In this document: positions 1 to 25,973 of the stretch, in pieces
How the letters are laid out: the number at the start of each line of letters is the position of its first letter
How positions within the stretch are numbered: position 1 is the stretch's first letter
Assembly (NCBI GenBank): GCA_017399305.1
Contig: JAFQDK010000005.1
Coordinates: 1-64,000 of the forward strand
Reading direction: 5' to 3'
From: Clostridia bacterium
GTDB lineage: Bacteria > Bacillota > Clostridia > Oscillospirales > CAG-272
Length of the DNA: 64,000 nt
Program-made: the position numbers and the translations under genes
Notes under the pieces: model-generated
The model's input: the letters and a program-made list of their open reading frames with translations, nothing else
What the model was told of the DNA's origin: nothing
The model's database searches: none

Positions 1-238
1 GGCGGCAAGCACAGTAGTAGACGTACCGATAGACTCAATCGCAGTAAAGGACCTCCGTCAGACAATCACCGGAGCAATTTACGATGCAAATGGCAACAAG
101 GTATCTGAGACATGTGACTTCAGCTTTGAGTGCTATGCAAATGGTGCATACACCAACTCTACAAATGTAAACGATAAGCTTGTAGCAGCAGCAGTAATCA
201 ACTTCTGTGACAAGGCAATCGAAGTATTTGCTGAGTAA
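1..238 (+). CDS. C-terminal end of a probable large surface or secreted protein (5' truncated)
   Basis: The frame is open from base 2 to a TAA at 236-238 and gives 78 residues; the start lies outside the window. The fragment contains YDANGNKVSET followed by a short helical tail. This resembles the terminal domain common at the end of very large secreted or dockerin-bearing proteins of gut Clostridia, where a YDA-G-x-VS core is followed by a helix. A rho-independent terminator lies 17 bases after the stop, so this gene ends its own transcript and is not part of the peptide locus downstream. I cannot say what the rest of the protein does. Confidence 0.6.
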   Translation, partial: AASTVVDVPIDSIAVKDLRQTITGAIYDANGNKVSETCDFSFECYANGAYTNSTNVNDKLVAAAVINFCDKAIEVFAE

Positions 239-255
239 TTAGCTAACTAAATAAA

Positions 256-282
256 AAAACCACCCATTTGGGTGGTTTTTTT
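256..282 (+). terminator. Rho-independent terminator after the truncated surface-protein gene
   Basis: A perfect 10-bp stem (AAAACCACCC with GGGTGGTTTT) closes an ATTT loop and runs into a T tract. It separates the upstream gene from the peptide locus. Confidence 0.9.
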
Positions 283-293
283 ATGAAAAACTA

Positions 294-321
294 TTGACAA
301 ATTAAAAAATAGCGGTATAAT
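294..321 (+). promoter_or_regulatory. Consensus sigma-A promoter of the small peptide gene
   Basis: TTGACA at 294-299 and TATAAT at 316-321 are separated by 16 bases, so both boxes match the consensus fully. Transcription would start near 328, about 40 bases before the peptide start codon. No operator is evident. Confidence 0.85.
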
Positions 322-366: not shown

Positions 367-486
367 ATGAAATACACTACTCCTGTAGCTGAGCTTCTCG
401 CTCTTGAGGCAGTTTCTGTAATCCTTTCTTCTACCGAAGAAGAGGGTTGCTTGACCGACTGCGAAGATATGCTCGAAGAGTTCTAA
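367..486 (+). CDS. 39-residue small peptide, candidate RiPP precursor
   Basis: ATG at 367 follows GGAGG (352-356) and gives 39 residues. The N-terminal part (KYTTPVAELLALEAVSVIL) resembles the many short clostridial peptides beginning K-Y-x-x-P that sit beside radical SAM genes. Then come SSTEEEG, two cysteines spaced CLTDC, and the acidic end EDMLEEF. There is no signal peptide. The gene has its own consensus promoter and a terminator directly after it. Downstream are an HPr-kinase-like gene and two radical SAM/SPASM genes, the usual company of a ribosomally made, post-translationally modified peptide. The final seven residues are nearly identical to the end of the next protein, EDELEEF. The open frame and RBS are seen; the RiPP role is inference. 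Cys, Ser, Thr and Glu residues are possible modification sites. Confidence 0.8.
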   Translation: MKYTTPVAELLALEAVSVILSSTEEEGCLTDCEDMLEEF

Positions 487-493
487 GAAAACT

Positions 494-522
494 AAAAAGG
501 AGGCAATTATTGCCTCCTTTTT
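494..522 (+). terminator. Rho-independent terminator or attenuator between the peptide and SLH-protein genes
   Basis: A 12-bp stem (AAAAAGGAGGCA with TGCCTCCTTTTT) carries an ATTAT loop. It lies 7 bases after the peptide stop. With the strong upstream promoter it would give abundant short peptide transcripts, with partial read-through into the modification genes. Confidence 0.85.
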
Positions 523-568
523 AACTTTCAAGTGATTGTTTTAATTATATACAATGGAGAATAATGTT

Positions 569-1363
569 ATGAAGAAAGTATTGTTTTTAGTTTCTTGTAT
601 TGCTATCATTCTTGCAGTTACTGTTGTTGCTTTTGCCGGCAGTTTTACCGATGTTGCAGATGATGCATATTATGCAGATGCGGCTGAGCGTATGGCCGAA
701 AAGGGAATCCTTTCTGGATTTGGCGATGGTCGTTTTTATGGTGATTGGGAGCTTACCCGTGCACAGTTCGCGGCTCTTGCATGCAAAATGCTTGGCAAAG
801 TAAACGAAGCTACTGCGCTTGCAGGAAAGACAAGCTTTATGGATGTTCCTGAAACTCACTGGTCTACAGGATATGTAAATTATGCTGCTGCTAACAAGAT
901 CATTAACGGAGACGGAGATGGAAACTTCCGTCCTGATGATCCTGTTAAATATGAGGAAGCTATCAAGGTTATTATTTGTGTAATTGATCCTGACAATAAT
1001 ATCAAGGTTGATTCTTCTGATTGGTCAAAGAATTACATTGCGGAAGCAAAAAAACTCGGTCTGACCAATAATCTTATTGGCAAAAAGGGTGAAACTTTAA
1101 AGAGAAGCGATATCGCTGTTCTTGCTGATAAGGGTATGTCATTAATGGAAAATGAGAGTAAGGTTGATACAACAAAGAAACCTTCTGCGCATACTCCTTC
1201 TACTACCACTAAAGCACCCGAGACCGAAGTGCCTAAGACTACAACTGCTGCTACTACACCGGCTCCTATTGTTGTTACTCTTCCTCAGATTCAAATACCT
1301 GATGAAGACGAAACTACAACGATTGTTACCACAAGAAGAGAAGACGAGCTTGAGGAGTTTTAA
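569..1363 (+). CDS. Secreted three-SLH-domain surface protein with Thr-rich tail ending EDELEEF
   Basis: I use ATG 569 (MKKVLFLVSC) rather than ATG 554, because GGAGA at 556-560 is correctly spaced only for 569. The 264 residues start with a signal peptide (about 1-25, ending VAFAG). Three SLH domains follow: FTDVADDAYY, FMDVPETHWS with the FRPDDPV signature, and a weaker third near residues 150-200. SLH domains bind pyruvylated cell-wall polysaccharide, so the protein should sit on the outer wall. The last 65 residues are rich in Thr, Pro and acidic residues and end in EDELEEF, nearly the same as the small peptide upstream (EDMLEEF). That match and the downstream radical SAM genes suggest the tail is handled by the same machinery. 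Alternatively the tail is only a wall-spanning spacer. Confidence 0.88.
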   Translation: MKKVLFLVSCIAIILAVTVVAFAGSFTDVADDAYYADAAERMAEKGILSGFGDGRFYGDWELTRAQFAALACKMLGKVNEATALAGKTSFMDVPETHWSTGYVNYAAANKIINGDGDGNFRPDDPVKYEEAIKVIICVIDPDNNIKVDSSDWSKNYIAEAKKLGLTNNLIGKKGETLKRSDIAVLADKGMSLMENESKVDTTKKPSAHTPSTTTKAPETEVPKTTTAATTPAPIVVTLPQIQIPDEDETTTIVTTRREDELEEF

Positions 1364-1399
1364 GTCTTTTGTTTGATAACTGAATGGAAGGTTGGCATT

Positions 1400-2131
1400 A
1401 TGGTATATAAAATAGCGGATTTTAATATAGAAATCAATTCGGTTTATCCCAATATACATGATTTCTGCGCGGACTATCTATGTAAAGAGAACACTAATGT
1501 TGACTTTTCTATAACTACTACATATGATGATATCAAGTTTGAACTTGATAACGGGCGAAAGAACGGCGCAACGGGTGTCTGCACTAAAACTTATTTAGAA
1601 GAGCTAGCTGTGTATCGTAAGATTTGTTCAAGCGTTCTTCAATATGATGCATTTCTTATGCACGGTGCATTAATAGAGCATGACGGTAAGGGATATCTTT
1701 TTACTGCCAAAAGTGGAACCGGAAAGACAACCCATATAAATCTATGGAAAGAATTATTTGGTGATGACAAGGTTACAATAGTAAACGGTGACAAGCCAAT
1801 AATTCGTTTTATAGATGGCAAAGCTTATGCGTACGGAACGCCTTGGTGCGGTAAAGAAGGGTATAATGTAAATACGAGGGTAGAACTTTGTGCAATCATT
1901 TTCCTTGAACGCGCGGTGGATAATTCTATTTTGAAGATTTCAAGTGATGTTGCGCTGCCCAGAATTCTTTCTCAAATAATGCTTACAGATTCTCCGAATC
2001 TTGGCAAGCAACTCGAATTGATTGATAGATTGTTCAGTAGTGTTAATACATATTTATTGAAATGTAATATGGATATTGAGGCTGCGAGAGTTGCATATGC
2101 AGGCATGTCTTCTGACGATGGGAGAGAATAA
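1400..2131 (+). CDS. HPr-kinase-like P-loop protein of the peptide-modification locus
   Basis: Start ATG 1400 (MVYKIADF) has GGAAGG at 1386-1391; an in-frame TTG at 1373 lacks a good site. The product is 243 residues. A P-loop, AKSGTGKTTH, lies near residue 105 and is followed by VNGDKPII and YGTPWCGKEG. This is the layout of HprK-like proteins found in peptide-modification clusters, which keep the HPr kinase fold but not the full HPr kinase/phosphorylase. HprK relatives in lasso-peptide clusters phosphorylate the precursor (established); whether this one phosphorylates the small peptide, binds it, or does something else is unknown. The stop overlaps the next start (TAATG), indicating translational coupling to the first radical SAM gene. 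Confidence 0.8.
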   Translation: MVYKIADFNIEINSVYPNIHDFCADYLCKENTNVDFSITTTYDDIKFELDNGRKNGATGVCTKTYLEELAVYRKICSSVLQYDAFLMHGALIEHDGKGYLFTAKSGTGKTTHINLWKELFGDDKVTIVNGDKPIIRFIDGKAYAYGTPWCGKEGYNVNTRVELCAIIFLERAVDNSILKISSDVALPRILSQIMLTDSPNLGKQLELIDRLFSSVNTYLLKCNMDIEAARVAYAGMSSDDGRE

Positions 2132-3492
2132 TGGAAATAATTAAAGGTGCTTCGTCTGTATTTTCTAAACTTATTGGAAAGCAAGAAATTGTTGCAGGGA
2201 CAAGATATAGGCCTATTAGTTTTCTAATCTTTGCAGATGATGCCGGGACTAAACTTGTATACAACACGTTTACAAATATGTTTTCCCGAATTAATGAAGA
2301 AGAAACAGGCGTTTTGAAAGGAAGTATTCCTGTTGATATTGACCGAGATAGGAAACTTATAGAGAATTGGTTTTTGATTTCTCAGGACAATGATGATTAT
2401 GATCTTTGCGAACAGACGAGAGCATTGATCAAGTTTGTCACTTCTGCCGGTAAGCCTAAATATGATTCATATACAATACTGACAACTACTGATTGCAACG
2501 CCAGATGTTTTTATTGTTACCAGTTCGGACGCGATAATTCAAGGGCACATATGTCTACACAGACAGCGGCAGACGTAGCAGAGTTTATCATTCGTAATTC
2601 CGATCCCAAACAGCCGACACATATAACATGGTTTGGTGGAGAACCTCTGTATAATGATAAGGTTATAGATATTATTTGTAACCGTCTTACAGAAAGAGGA
2701 ATGCGTTTTTCATCCAGCATGATAAGCAATGGATATTTGCTTAGTCAGGATGTGGTAGACAAAGCTATAAATAAGTGGAATCTTAAATCTGTTCAGATTC
2801 CTCTTGACGGTACAGAAGTCGTGTACAATAAGGTCAAGGCGTATATTTACAGAGATGATCCTAATCCGTATAAGAGAGTTATCAGTAATATAAAGACGGC
2901 TTTAGACGGTGGGCTTAAGGTCGTTGCTCGTGTAAATGTTGATAATCATAACCTTGACGATATCTTTTCTCTTGCAAAGGAACTGGCTTCGCATTTTGCG
3001 TCGTATAAGAAGTTTCATATTTACTGCCATGTTTTATATGAAAATGCCGGTGCTAAATTGATACAGCGCAATGATCTGGAACGTATGAAACTTGCTGAAG
3101 ATCTTATTAAGTTTGAAGAGTATTGTAACAGTCTGGGGATCTTTTCATCCCGTTCAGTTCCTGACTATTTTAGAACTGTTGCTTGTGCCGCTGATAATCC
3201 TCATGCAGTATGCATAGGTCCTGATGGTAGACTAGGTCTTTGCAGTCATGTAATGGCAACAGATACTTTTGGAAGTATATATACTGATGAGGAGGATATA
3301 GCACTTTTAGATTCCTGGAGAAAGTATATTAATTGCAAAGACCTTTGCAACGGATGTCCTTTTGTACCGGTTTGTCTTAGAGTTGAGAGATGTTCTGAAA
3401 AAGGCAGTGCTCCTTGTGATGAATCTTATAAAAAACAAAAGATGCATCATTTCGTTGCTGCGATGCTAAGAGATAATAAAACTGAAAATTAA
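2131..3492 (+). CDS. Radical SAM/SPASM peptide maturase-like enzyme 1
   Basis: The 453-residue protein has an N-terminal region of about 110 residues (with VYNTFTNMF, a pattern typical of peptide maturases). The radical SAM core carries CNARCFYCY, so C122, C126 and C129 would bind the 4Fe-4S cluster that cleaves S-adenosylmethionine. A GGEPL motif follows. The C-terminal SPASM region (about 350-440) has many cysteines (CAADNPHAVC, GLCSH, CKDLCNGCPFVPVC, CSEKGSAPCDES) for auxiliary clusters. Such enzymes install thioether, C-C or C-O bonds or epimerise residues in ribosomal peptides. Its start overlaps the HprK-like stop. The reaction and substrate are not determinable; the nearest candidates are the 39-residue peptide and the SLH-protein tail. 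Confidence 0.88.
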   Translation: MEIIKGASSVFSKLIGKQEIVAGTRYRPISFLIFADDAGTKLVYNTFTNMFSRINEEETGVLKGSIPVDIDRDRKLIENWFLISQDNDDYDLCEQTRALIKFVTSAGKPKYDSYTILTTTDCNARCFYCYQFGRDNSRAHMSTQTAADVAEFIIRNSDPKQPTHITWFGGEPLYNDKVIDIICNRLTERGMRFSSSMISNGYLLSQDVVDKAINKWNLKSVQIPLDGTEVVYNKVKAYIYRDDPNPYKRVISNIKTALDGGLKVVARVNVDNHNLDDIFSLAKELASHFASYKKFHIYCHVLYENAGAKLIQRNDLERMKLAEDLIKFEEYCNSLGIFSSRSVPDYFRTVACAADNPHAVCIGPDGRLGLCSHVMATDTFGSIYTDEEDIALLDSWRKYINCKDLCNGCPFVPVCLRVERCSEKGSAPCDESYKKQKMHHFVAAMLRDNKTEN

Positions 3493-3502
3493 TAATTATA
3501 TA

Positions 3503-3531
3503 ACAGCAAACAGTATCAAACTGTTTGCTGT
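3503..3531 (+). other. Perfect hairpin without T tract between the two radical SAM genes
   Basis: ACAGCAAACAG pairs perfectly over 11 bp with CTGTTTGCTGT around a 7-base loop. There is no T run after it, so it is not a standard terminator. It could be an mRNA-stabilising or processing element that sets the ratio of the two enzymes. Confidence 0.55.
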
Positions 3532-3562
3532 TGGCATATAATCTGCTAAGGAGAAATGGTTT

Positions 3563-4924
3563 ATGAAAACCATAAAAGACGCATTTAAGCATGTAACCGG
3601 ACTACTTGGAGAACAGGATATATCTATAGGTAGCGAGTATCGCCCAATATCCTTTTGTGCGCTTGTCAGTGGTGATGGATATCGTGCGGCATACAATTCA
3701 CTCACAGGAGTACTGTTGCTTCTGGATGAAGCAGAGTTTACTATTCTGAATTCGGAAAAAGTTGTGGCGGATGATAGCACTGACTGGTTTATAAAGAACT
3801 GGTTTTTAGTTCCTGTTGCTCACGATGATATGCAACTCAGAAATGAGATAGTTGATTTTATCAGAACCATAAATGTGAGTGACGGCAAACTAAGAACGTA
3901 TACTATTTTTACAACCACGGATTGCAATGCCCGTTGTTTTTATTGCTTTGAAAAAGGAAGAAAATATTTACACATGAGCGATGAAATTGCTGAGGATGCG
4001 GCAGTCTATATTCTTCGCACGTGTATGGATAAGATTAATCTGAGTTGGTTTGGCGGCGAACCGCTATATAACGATAGTGCTATAGATATAATAACTGATC
4101 GTGTGCGGGCTGCTGGTATTGAATTTAACAGTACCATGGTCTCAAATGCATATCTTTTTGATGATGAAATTGTCAAAAGAGCGGTTGAAAAATGGAATCT
4201 TAAACGTGTTCAGGTAACTTTAGACGGAACCGAAGAAGTATATAATAAGGTAAAGGCGTACATATATAATGATGGCAGAAGCCCTTATAAAGTGGTGCTC
4301 GACAATATTGACAGACTTCTTGATGCCGGCATAAGTGTAAATGTGCGACTTAACATGGATAACTACAATTATGAGAACCTCAAACTTCTTATAGACGAGC
4401 TTTATAATAGATTTGGATCTGAAAAGAAGTTTGCTATTTATAGCAATATGCTTTTTGAAATTTCCAGTCAACCGGGATCTTGCCGATCTGAAATTGAACG
4501 CAAAGAACTCGAACAAAAATGGATGGATTTGGAGGAACGTATTTTCAAACTTGGCAAGAGACATATAAAAGCATTACCAAGTAGTATTTCTTTAAATCAG
4601 TGCATGGCGGATTCAGAGAATGCTGTAACTATACTTCCAGACGGTCATCTTGGTAAATGCGAGCACCATACTGAAGACAGATTTATCGGTGACATTTACA
4701 GCGGTATTACTAATACCAATGAGGTTGAACTTTTTAAAGTAAGAGTGGACTCAGCTCCGATATGTAAGGGATGTAAGATTTACCCTTCCTGTGTCAGAAT
4801 AAAGGAATGCACTACCTTGAAGATATCAGGGATGTGCGATGAATCGACACGTTATCACAGAGAAAAAATGTTGTATCAAAGCATTGCAAAGTATGTTGAG
4901 GATTACATTTCAAAAAGCGAATAA
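3563..4924 (+). CDS. Radical SAM/SPASM peptide maturase-like enzyme 2
   Basis: Also 453 residues and clearly paralogous to the preceding enzyme. It shares the N-terminal YRPISF and YNSLTG patterns, the core CNARCFYCF (C121, C125, C128), WFGGEPLYND, and a conserved VYNKVKAYIY stretch. The SPASM region differs: it has QCMADSENAV, HLGKCEHHTED and ICKGCKIYPSCVRIKEC. The auxiliary-cluster ligands and the substrate-facing parts have therefore diverged, which suggests two different modifications or two substrates. GGAG at 3550-3553 precedes the start. A strong terminator follows the stop at once, so this gene closes the locus. No peptidase or exporter gene for the product is present in the window. 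Confidence 0.88.
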   Translation: MKTIKDAFKHVTGLLGEQDISIGSEYRPISFCALVSGDGYRAAYNSLTGVLLLLDEAEFTILNSEKVVADDSTDWFIKNWFLVPVAHDDMQLRNEIVDFIRTINVSDGKLRTYTIFTTTDCNARCFYCFEKGRKYLHMSDEIAEDAAVYILRTCMDKINLSWFGGEPLYNDSAIDIITDRVRAAGIEFNSTMVSNAYLFDDEIVKRAVEKWNLKRVQVTLDGTEEVYNKVKAYIYNDGRSPYKVVLDNIDRLLDAGISVNVRLNMDNYNYENLKLLIDELYNRFGSEKKFAIYSNMLFEISSQPGSCRSEIERKELEQKWMDLEERIFKLGKRHIKALPSSISLNQCMADSENAVTILPDGHLGKCEHHTEDRFIGDIYSGITNTNEVELFKVRVDSAPICKGCKIYPSCVRIKECTTLKISGMCDESTRYHREKMLYQSIAKYVEDYISKSE

Positions 4925-4957
4925 AGAAAAAGCTCCAATAGCGGAGCTTTTTCTTTA
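4923..4957 (+). terminator. Rho-independent terminator closing the radical SAM locus
   Basis: A 14-bp stem (AAAGAAAAAGCTCC with GGAGCTTTTTCTTT) has a 6-base loop. Its first bases overlap the stop codon of the second radical SAM gene. Confidence 0.9.
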
Positions 4958-5037: not shown

Positions 5038-5215
5038 TGGAGGATAATAATAACCATGGGTGACGGCAGCTTAGCTGACGGGAACTTGCGAGAGAATAAG
5101 TTTTACATTGCGTACTTTGAGCTTTGCTTAAAGCCGCAGCTTTTTCGTTTTCTCCAAACCTGTCTGATTAGTTGATCGTCGTTTTTTTGTATAAAACGAG
5201 ATTAACTATCTATGA
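5038..5215 (+). ncRNA. Structured 5' leader of unknown class upstream of the CorC/HlyC gene
   Basis: The 312-base gap between the terminator and the CorC-like gene contains a likely -10 box (TATACT 5013-5018) and then dense potential RNA structure. I see a CAGC-TTA-GCTG hairpin (5067-5077), a long-range helix 5077-5082 with 5159-5164, AACTT with AAGTT (5083-5087 with 5098-5102), a 5-bp stem with a CGCA loop (5130-5143), and an outer pairing 5062-5065 with 5177-5180. An imperfect long hairpin (5169-5208) then ends just before the GGAGG at 5221. This looks like a metabolite- or ion-sensing leader. It does not match the M-box, yybP-ykoY, ydaO, SAM or T-box patterns I know, so I leave the class open. 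Confidence 0.5.
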
Positions 5216-5236
5216 TTATTTGGAGGAAAAATTTAA

Positions 5237-6553
5237 ATGACTATCTTTTTGCAGCTTTTACTGCAATTTATACTTATTGGACTTAATGCTTTTTTTGCAT
5301 GCGCAGAAATCGCAGTGCTTTCTGTCAACGATGCTCATCTTGCACAACTCATTGAGCAGGGCAACAAAAGAGCTATGCGTCTTGCGCGGTTTAAAAATGA
5401 TTCAGCAAGATTTCTTGCAACTATACAGGTTGCTATTACGCTTTCAGGCTTTTTAGGAAGTGCGTTTGCAGCAGACAGCTTTTCAGGTATTATTACAGAT
5501 GCACTTGTTAAAGTGATTCCGATCAGCCCTGAGGTTATCGACTCTATATCGGTAATTCTTGTTACATTGATACTTTCGTATTTCACATTGGTGCTTGGTG
5601 AACTTGTGCCCAAGCGTCTTGCAATGAAGCGCGCGGAATCTTTGGCACTTTCTATGTCAGGTATAATCAGCGCGATATCAGTATGCTTTAAACCGATTGT
5701 TGCTTTCCTTTCGCTATCTACCAATATCGTACTTCGTCTTTTCGGCATTGATCCTAACGCTGAAGAAGAACCTGAATTTGAGAATGATATCAAGGATCTT
5801 GCAGACCAGGGTAGCCGAACCGGCGAGATAGATAGCGACGAAAGAGAGATTATACATAATCTCTTTGAGTTTGATGATATTACTATCGGTGAACTTTCGA
5901 CTCACCGTACAGATCTATCCGTATTGTATCTTGAAGATGATATGGAAGAATGGCATAAAACTATAATTGAGAAACGTTTTTCACACTATCCGGTTTGCGG
6001 TGATACAGTGGATGATGTTGTTTGCGTACTTTCTACTAAGGACTATTTTGCACTTGATGACAAGAGCCGCAAAAATGTTATGAAGAAAGCTGTTGCTCCT
6101 GCATATTTTGTACCTGAGGGCGTGCGCGCCGATGTACTCTTCAAGCATATGAAGAAGAGCCGCAATCATTTTGCTGTCGTAATGGATGAATACGGTGGAG
6201 TTACCGGTGTAGCCACAATGAAAGACTTGCTTGCACAGATAGTCGGCGACTTTGATGATGATGCCGATGATACTCCCGATGTTGTAAACGTTTCGGAGAA
6301 TACCTTTGAGATAAAAGGCGTTGCTCCTCTTTCTGCTGTTTGCGAGCAGCTTTCAATAGAACTCCCTGTTGATGAATATGATACTTTCGGTGGTTACATA
6401 ATGGGACTTTGTGGATCCATCCCCGAGGATGGCGAGGCAGAGGTACCCGAAACAGATGATTTATGCATTGAAAAATGTACTGTGGTAAATCATCGTGTAG
6501 TCAGTGCGGTTGTTGTTAAAAAAGAAAAATCTTCTGAAGAGGAAGATGACTGA
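5237..6553 (+). CDS. CorC/HlyC (CNNM-like) family membrane protein with DUF21, CBS pair and CorC_HlyC domains
   Basis: The 438 residues begin with a DUF21/CNNM membrane domain (about 1-190, four hydrophobic segments). A CBS-domain pair follows (about 205-330, including HFAVVMDEYGGVTGVATMKD). The C-terminal CorC_HlyC domain spans about 345-425 (FEIKGVAPLSAVCEQL ... YDTFGGYIMGLCG). The order and length are standard for the family, whose members are linked to Mg2+ or other cation efflux; old 'hemolysin' names are misleading. GGAGG lies 11 bases before ATG 5237. The long structured leader upstream suggests RNA-level control, plausibly by a cation. The DUF368 gene follows after 20 bases and is probably cotranscribed. 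Confidence 0.9.
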   Translation: MTIFLQLLLQFILIGLNAFFACAEIAVLSVNDAHLAQLIEQGNKRAMRLARFKNDSARFLATIQVAITLSGFLGSAFAADSFSGIITDALVKVIPISPEVIDSISVILVTLILSYFTLVLGELVPKRLAMKRAESLALSMSGIISAISVCFKPIVAFLSLSTNIVLRLFGIDPNAEEEPEFENDIKDLADQGSRTGEIDSDEREIIHNLFEFDDITIGELSTHRTDLSVLYLEDDMEEWHKTIIEKRFSHYPVCGDTVDDVVCVLSTKDYFALDDKSRKNVMKKAVAPAYFVPEGVRADVLFKHMKKSRNHFAVVMDEYGGVTGVATMKDLLAQIVGDFDDDADDTPDVVNVSENTFEIKGVAPLSAVCEQLSIELPVDEYDTFGGYIMGLCGSIPEDGEAEVPETDDLCIEKCTVVNHRVVSAVVVKKEKSSEEEDD

Positions 6554-25791: not shown

Positions 25792-25802
25792 ATTGAAGTA
25801 AT

Positions 25803-25958
25803 GATAGAGGTGCGATGTTTAAGAGTAGCATTTTTTAAATGTACGGTGCATAAATGTGAAAGGGAACATTGCCGAAGCGGTTCGATTGCCGAAAAGTCGA
25901 ATACGCTGGGGCGTATCAAAATATGATGCGAACTGTCACCGAAAGGTGGAGAGCTGTC
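25803..25958 (+). ncRNA. Lysine riboswitch (L-box) aptamer
   Basis: The sequence follows the L-box consensus closely: GATAGAGGTGCGA, AAGAGTA, GTGAAAGGG, TTGCCGAAG, GCTGGG and AACTGTCACC occur in order. The closing helix pairs GATAG (25803-25807) with CTGTC (25954-25958). L-box RNAs bind lysine and usually switch off lysine synthesis or import genes. The element precedes a polar amino acid ABC transporter, which identifies that transporter as a likely lysine importer. Confidence 0.95.
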
Positions 25959-25973
25959 AAGGTTACAATGTTA

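Follow-up and report, generated by a model that had tools for sequence, protein, structure and literature searches.

A predicted radical SAM peptide-modification locus of a Clostridia bacterium, with a C-terminal tail common to its precursor peptide and an S-layer homology protein

The window considered here comprises 64,000 nucleotides of the forward strand of contig JAFQDK010000005.1 from a Clostridia bacterium (assembly GCA_017399305.1). It starts at the first base of the contig (C22 in our own numbering, in which L, C and G stand for loci, contigs and genomes), and the host genome is 2.13 Mb in size and 64% complete. Close to the contig start lies a locus of five genes, coding for a small peptide, an S-layer homology (SLH) protein, an HprK-like protein and two radical S-adenosylmethionine (SAM) enzymes of the SPASM type (Table 1). 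All five genes claimed in a first-pass annotation of the same DNA are borne out, with the same coordinates, and its reading of them as a radical SAM locus for a ribosomally synthesized and post-translationally modified peptide (RiPP), or something like it, is supported. Comparison of the C-termini shows that the predicted peptide core ends in a locus-specific tail, which recurs at the end of the putatively SLH-anchored protein behind a Thr-rich spacer.

The precursor peptide (MKYTTPVAELLALEAVSVILSSTEEEGCLTDCEDMLEEF, 39 aa, 367-486) has no match to a Pfam or NCBIfam family. Its Y3-T-T-P6 motif and Ser21/22 form a leader similar to that of the linear polyphosphorylated peptides (LPPs), whereas the HQxIxFET part of the Bacilli LPP leader consensus (YxxPxVLxHQxIxFETxxS) is absent. 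The open reading frame (ORF) is very likely a real gene, because the ATG is preceded by GGAGG, a promoter-like site with 12/12 matches lies upstream, hairpins flank the gene, and peptides with the same leader pattern occur in three of the five other genomes of the genus (G001, G002, G004). The two flanking hairpins were spotted by eye and then folded, and are absent from the list of the terminator scan; weaker sigma-70-like sites around the locus are not enriched (23 versus 17.7 in shuffles). Together, the promoter-like site and the flanking hairpins would fit a precursor that is produced in larger amounts than its enzymes. The leader-profile set, from which leaders with E above 0.11 were excluded, contains 44 peptides. 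The [YFWH]xxP motif is present in 31 of them, and a Ser at +17 to +20 in 27 of these 31 (at +19 in 22), a count that the selection itself favours in part and for which there is no independent control, the first 28-30 residues having served to train the profile. Two further kinds of peptide were noticed. One is a solitary peptide that shares the leader and ends in FTLPSETEMTFFKEKE (L330, 10665-10817, on G000:C2); it follows a giant UP protein and has no adjoining locus enzymes. The other is a Cys-containing group (C-x-TWSNQ-x-GV-x-C-x-YGLT) from HprK loci that have no close radical SAM gene (L252, L259, L267).

The SLH protein (264 aa) matches the Pfam SLH family with an E value of 5e-26. The peptide ends in CEDMLEEF and the SLH protein in REDELEEF, and among 2398 ORF ends the SLH partner ranks first as the tail match of the window peptide. 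An SLH partner is likewise the best match, in the same set, for the three peptides of L064 and for that of L069. The SLH protein had been claimed as a part of the locus, and beyond adjacency this is upheld by the closeness of the two tails, encoded by different codons. In the corresponding locus of G004 (SLH protein 68% and common downstream gene 60% identical to those of the window), both tails are changed in concert, to CEWETPDL in the peptide and SQWETPDL in the SLH protein. The tail pair ELPIITV/ELPIIPVK is found at L214, in another family of the order. The tail partners are SLH or signal-peptide proteins, and tail sharing, between peptide and anchor or between two anchors, is observed in five families of the order. 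A role of the tail as a genome-wide sorting signal was rejected: the pattern E-D-x-(L/F)-x-x-F-stop has four matches in the host genome (two of them the peptide and the SLH protein) and one in the control direction. A recent duplication or gene conversion could also have copied the tail without any function, since the genes adjoin, the tandem peptides of L064 are near-identical and only 4 of the 17 shared codons differ in L296. Among the shared residues, however, 4 of 6 have different codons in the window, and the same holds for 3 of 6 in L069, 4 of 8 in L218 and 4 of 7 in L085 (but for only 2 of 7 in L214), so copying at the DNA level is disfavoured and we regard it as highly improbable.

Table 1. 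Features at the start of the window, in order of position
Feature	Position	Strand	Remarks
UP gene, 3' end	2..238	+	secreted-protein gene, 'UP' domain; 5' part cut by contig start
Terminator-type hairpin between UP gene and peptide gene	251..284	+	folding -20.7 kcal/mol, z -6.5
Sigma-70-like promoter upstream of peptide gene	294..321	+	TTGACA-16-TATAAT, 12/12 matches
Precursor peptide	367..486	+	39 aa; YxxP 373-384; Ser-Ser 427-432; two Cys; tail EDMLEEF 463-483
Hairpin 3' of peptide gene (terminator or attenuator)	493..523	+	folding -21.8 kcal/mol, z -7.4
SLH protein	569..1363	+	signal peptide, SLH repeats, Thr-rich spacer; tail EDELEEF 1340-1360
HprK-like kinase	1400..2131	+	P-loop SGTGKTTH; HprK/PEPCK fold (predicted)
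Radical SAM/SPASM maturase 1	2131..3492	+	453 aa; N-terminal region read as RRE-like in model
Radical SAM/SPASM maturase 2	3563..4924	+	453 aa
Terminator-like hairpin at 3' end of locus	4922..4957	+	from terminator scan

A larger comparison of tails covered 198 oriented loci, with 8 duplicates excluded (L120-L123, L126, L127, L148, L157), and comprised 44 peptides and 1671 ORFs. With ORFs of at least 100 aa and 15 residues (the headline setting), the best tail match lies inside the peptide's own locus for 5 of the 44 peptides, versus 0.23 expected (Poisson 4.7e-6), although all five pairs had been noticed by eye before this test, the window, L064 and L069 having given rise to the idea and L214 and L231 having surfaced during the widening of the locus set. 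These rank-1 peptides are those of the window, L069, L214 and L231, and one of L064. Over 12 settings of the test their number varies from 3 to 6 (Poisson 1.9e-3 to 4.0e-7); the Shine-Dalgarno-filtered version gives 4/44, and counting internal copies in secreted proteins gives 6/43 versus 0.27 expected. In 100 composition-preserving shuffles the mean was 0.43 and the maximum 2, and none reached 5. From these predicted proteins, we take the shared tail as a supported pattern in a minority of the loci. Its simplest reading would be that of a shared docking tag.

In its predicted layout, the SLH protein of the window exemplifies a wider anchor-spacer-tail pattern. At no fewer than nine loci where the leader profile finds no peptide (L065, L066, L128, L129, L139, L144, L149, L156, L161), a lipoprotein-like or SLH protein is located directly 5' of the HprK-like gene, and these anchored proteins have a low-complexity spacer and a terminal motif that is conserved among related loci, such as REGENMNTELPGYTPPYP in L129 and KENMLPFIPF in L065. 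Two anchored proteins with a common tail are present in L296, L302, L085 and L218; in the first two, nearly the same tail (DEGWTGIY) is found on an SLH-type protein and on another membrane-anchored protein. The peptide core of L302, DNDIADPWG, recurs within the spacer of the SLH protein, and an anchored protein of L231 also holds the peptide core in its spacer. Such internal copies, as well as the matching epitope on an anchored protein, could indicate a decoy or immunity function, in which the SLH protein or lipoprotein shows a copy of the peptide tail and so shields the producer from its own exported peptide. This is unlikely in our view: two anchored proteins have a tail in common in L296, where no peptide was found, and in L085, where the two peptides do not have that tail, SLH-HprK pairs occur without a detected peptide in two genomes, and the toxicity of the peptide is hypothetical.

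Giant proteins with UP-related C-termini precede the peptide at several loci. A UP-type gene is found directly 5' of the peptide in the window, on C37 and C2 of the host genome, and also in L183, L186 and L199, and UP-type matches are present at five places in the host genome. Two UP-type proteins matched no Pfam family, and their sole family match was a sub-threshold one to ExtJ. The UP gene ends of the window (2-238) and L064 (14230-14349) are 98% identical over 40 aa and divergent past the stop. As a special case of the docking tag, the mature peptide and the SLH protein might bind the same partner outside the cell, e.g. the giant UP surface protein encoded 5' of the peptide; the enzymes would then not be the readers of the tail. 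That the tail partners are secreted or N-terminally anchored, that UP-type genes directly precede the peptides at several loci, and that the tails are shared in L069 (where no HprK match is found on the contig) would agree with this. It is nevertheless rather doubtful, as the stretches of the nine loci with an anchored protein before HprK are devoid of a leader-profile peptide, no peptide follows the UP gene at the end of C37, and the binding itself is hypothetical.

The order of the genes varies within the genus. It is peptide-peptide-SLH-radical SAM-HprK-peptide on C37 of the host genome, peptide-SLH-radical SAM on C76 of G004, peptide-SLH-HprK followed by the contig end on C30 of G004, peptide-HprK-radical SAM in G002, and peptide-HprK-radical SAM-radical SAM in G001, while G003 and G005 have SLH-HprK only. 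Strict conservation of the five genes, by which the first-pass annotation had proposed to check its claim, is rejected, as the full order is found in the window alone among the six genomes of the genus; the co-varying peptide that it had named as support was found. Conservation of the peptide, SLH and radical SAM genes together, which it had also made decisive, holds in part and not in the strict form, the gene sets being variable in the genus. Variation in order and content would be natural if an ordinary radical SAM RiPP happened to lie beside an unrelated SLH gene. Such a chance grouping is already disfavoured by the tail statistics and by a dedicated SLH subfamily, which adjoins HprK or the peptide in 6/6 genus cases, and there is very little probability left for it.

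The HprK-like protein (243 aa) gives weak ScmC/HprK matches, and in its predicted model has the HprK/PEPCK fold. At E 1e-25 or better, such a gene is found in 117 of the 394 sampled genomes of the order (62/169 genera); most of the named relatives that carry a similar gene are Clostridia assembled from metagenomes, in many cases of the ruminant gut. Within the fetched stretches of 191 HprK loci, a PqqD/RRE gene (RRE, RiPP recognition element) is present in 117, an S24-type signal-peptidase-like gene in 108 and NTP_transf_5 in 24. In the genus, the PqqD/RRE gene is encoded in trans, with one above-cut-off match in each of the six genomes. A signal-peptidase-like gene adjoins it in 6/6 genomes, found by similarity to an L072 protein, which itself scores 24.4 versus the cut-off of 51.85 for TIGR02228. 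NTP_transf_5 (PF14907) is present in 2/6 genomes. The earlier statement that there is no peptidase is correct for the locus only. No MsbA-like exporter is encoded among the five genes, and the rest of the genome was not searched for one.

The two radical SAM/SPASM enzymes are 40% identical to each other. The CX3CX2C motif and the SPASM cysteines are kept (C122, C126, C129, C352, C371, C406, C409, C415, C421 and C429 are invariant in 8/8 aligned sequences). Among the matches to curated maturase families, the best 25 of 62 and the best 25 of 49 are all under the cut-off, with scores of 156.8 versus a cut-off of 525 for TIGR04463 and 91.7 versus 340 for PapB. The solved structures closest to the model of enzyme 1 are 5why/5wgg (thioether bond formation), which we take to be CteB, and TigE; in our own reading of the model, its N-terminal region appears RRE-like. 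Close radical SAM relatives accompany such peptides in other genera, yet only 8 of the 394 genomes of the order (own included) have one at E 1e-45. A core Cys is present in 15/16 peptides at radical SAM loci versus 8/28 elsewhere (Fisher 2.8e-5), the counts being taken from related loci, some at one locus, so that their independence is overstated. As core Cys accompanies the radical SAM genes, this suggests that the core peptides are Cys cross-linked, by a bond of unspecified type. PapB forms links between Cys and Asp/Glu and accepts Cys-Xn-Asp with n from 0 to 6 (PMC9413430). The ranthipeptide/SCIFF maturases (PapB, CteB, TIGR04463, CefB, Clo7bot) have in common with the window enzymes the radical SAM/SPASM architecture and a Cys-containing core. 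They differ in that the window enzymes lie far under the family cut-offs, and the cross-link of the window product is a prediction.

The SynChlorMet cassette (NCBIfam ScmC, ScmD, ScmE) groups HprK-like, PqqD-like and radical SAM proteins, all of which are also seen here, but the ScmC score of the HprK-like protein is 26.8 versus the cut-off of 125 bits. In L092 and L082, genes near HprK are presumably capsule regulators of the CpsB/CpsD type, which they resemble by eye. LPP loci near capsule genes have been reported in PMC13381572 (Popov et al., Nat Commun, May 2026). According to that paper, a kinase phosphorylates a core Ser of the LPPs and a SipW-like peptidase, assisted by an RRE, removes the YxxP leader, while the roles of LPPs and of paeninodin are unknown. 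The class, a candidate undescribed one in the first-pass annotation, is no longer wholly undescribed, since peptides with HprK, an RRE and a SipW-like peptidase are the LPPs of 2026 (PMC13381572). With the LPPs, the locus has in common an HprK-like kinase beside the precursor, the YxxP leader, a Ser near the core start, a discrete RRE and possibly, in the form of the signal-peptidase-like gene, the leader peptidase; L214, a radical SAM relative, has further LPP-like traits in an NTP_transf_5 gene and, by look only, an ABC transporter. In contrast to the LPPs, radical SAM enzymes are added, the RRE and the putative peptidase are in trans, HQxIxFET is absent and the tail is common to an anchored protein; the main text of PMC13381572 uses none of the terms radical, S-layer, SLH, surface or lipoprotein. 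As the Bacilli leader consensus is otherwise absent, the locus is called LPP-like and is not filed as an LPP.

According to PMC9266682, the HprK-like kinases of paeninodin and pseudomycoidin phosphorylate a C-terminal Ser of the precursor, and in pseudomycoidin a nucleotidyltransferase homologue adds hexose. The type of kinase, there acting on a precursor Ser, is shared with these paeninodin-type lasso peptides. Unlike in lasso peptides, a macrolactam synthetase/cyclase and a B2 protease are not among the five proteins (the rest of the genome was not searched), and the window tail ends in Phe. In the open PubMed Central (PMC) literature, no paper was found on radical SAM, S-layer homology and RiPP together or on SynChlorMet, and among the titles listed there was none relevant to a tail shared with surface anchors and nothing relevant on the combination of PqqD, HPr kinase and S24. 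The kinase-RRE-peptidase chemistry is already known (LPP, lasso), the addition of radical SAM enzymes makes a variant of it, and the sharing of tails with anchors is new as far as these searches reach.

On balance, the locus probably belongs to a radical SAM branch of LPP-like RiPPs that is coupled to the cell surface. An RRE, whether the trans-encoded one or the RRE-like region at the N-terminus of the enzymes, would bind the YxxP leader, and the HprK-like kinase would phosphorylate the conserved Ser close to where leader and core meet. The core Cys may be linked to other residues, possibly Asp/Glu, by one radical SAM enzyme or by both, and the leader would be removed by the trans-encoded signal-peptidase-like enzyme. 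The tail would act as a recognition tag for one shared partner, so that a single component would be the target of both the peptide and the surface anchor, or would itself act on both. As the reader of the tail, an enzyme encoded at the locus is slightly favoured, at a little less than an even chance. A broader version, in which the tail is a modular locus-specific code common to the RiPP and to S-layer or lipoprotein anchors, the anchors are themselves substrates or docking partners, and RiPP-type cores are displayed at the surface, is put forward only tentatively. A locus-specific tail common to anchor and peptide gives a concrete lead, which is to identify its reader, and also a search rule for the partners of orphan peptides, namely shared C-terminal tails beside HprK-like genes. 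S-layers may display RiPP-type sequences, and a peptide-modification system would, if the proposal is true, be wired into the cell envelope.

Several observations weigh against this proposal, in addition to the limits given above with the tail, Ser and Cys counts. No rank-1 tail match is found for 39 of the 44 peptides, two of the three L064 peptides fall to rank 2 to 3 in the 1671-ORF test, and outside the genus the result is 2/36 peptides (L214, L231) versus ~0.19 expected pro rata. Within the genus, the partner in L068 ranks 204 among the 2398 ORF ends and 256 in the Shine-Dalgarno-filtered test. In the latter test the L218 partner ranks 440, the SLH tail of that locus being absent from its peptide. 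Tail scores of all pairs reach 30 in 16/16914 cases within loci versus 60/40000 across loci, i.e. with no within-locus excess; no test was based on this comparison, since there are orthologues in its across-locus control. The gene sets also do not always agree with the proposal. In G003 (84% complete) and G005 (75%), SLH-HprK is present and no peptide of the leader pattern was found, L067 and L071 have a peptide and radical SAM gene and no SLH protein at the locus, and the tails of L069 match, yet its 9.4 kb contig has no HprK match. NTP_transf_5 was not found in the host genome at its 64% completeness. Finally, the EDELEEF tail of the SLH protein has no Cys, Ser, Thr or Tyr, which makes the same cross-link or a hydroxyl phosphate inside the window tail unlikely; the SLH protein is accordingly disfavoured as a substrate of the same Cys cross-link.

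Two features are located elsewhere in the window. A long leader (5041-5236), in which no Rfam family reaches the gathering score, precedes the gene at 5237 (HlyC/CorC-like by eye), and a lysine riboswitch aptamer is found at 25797-25964 (+) with a score of 106 bits.

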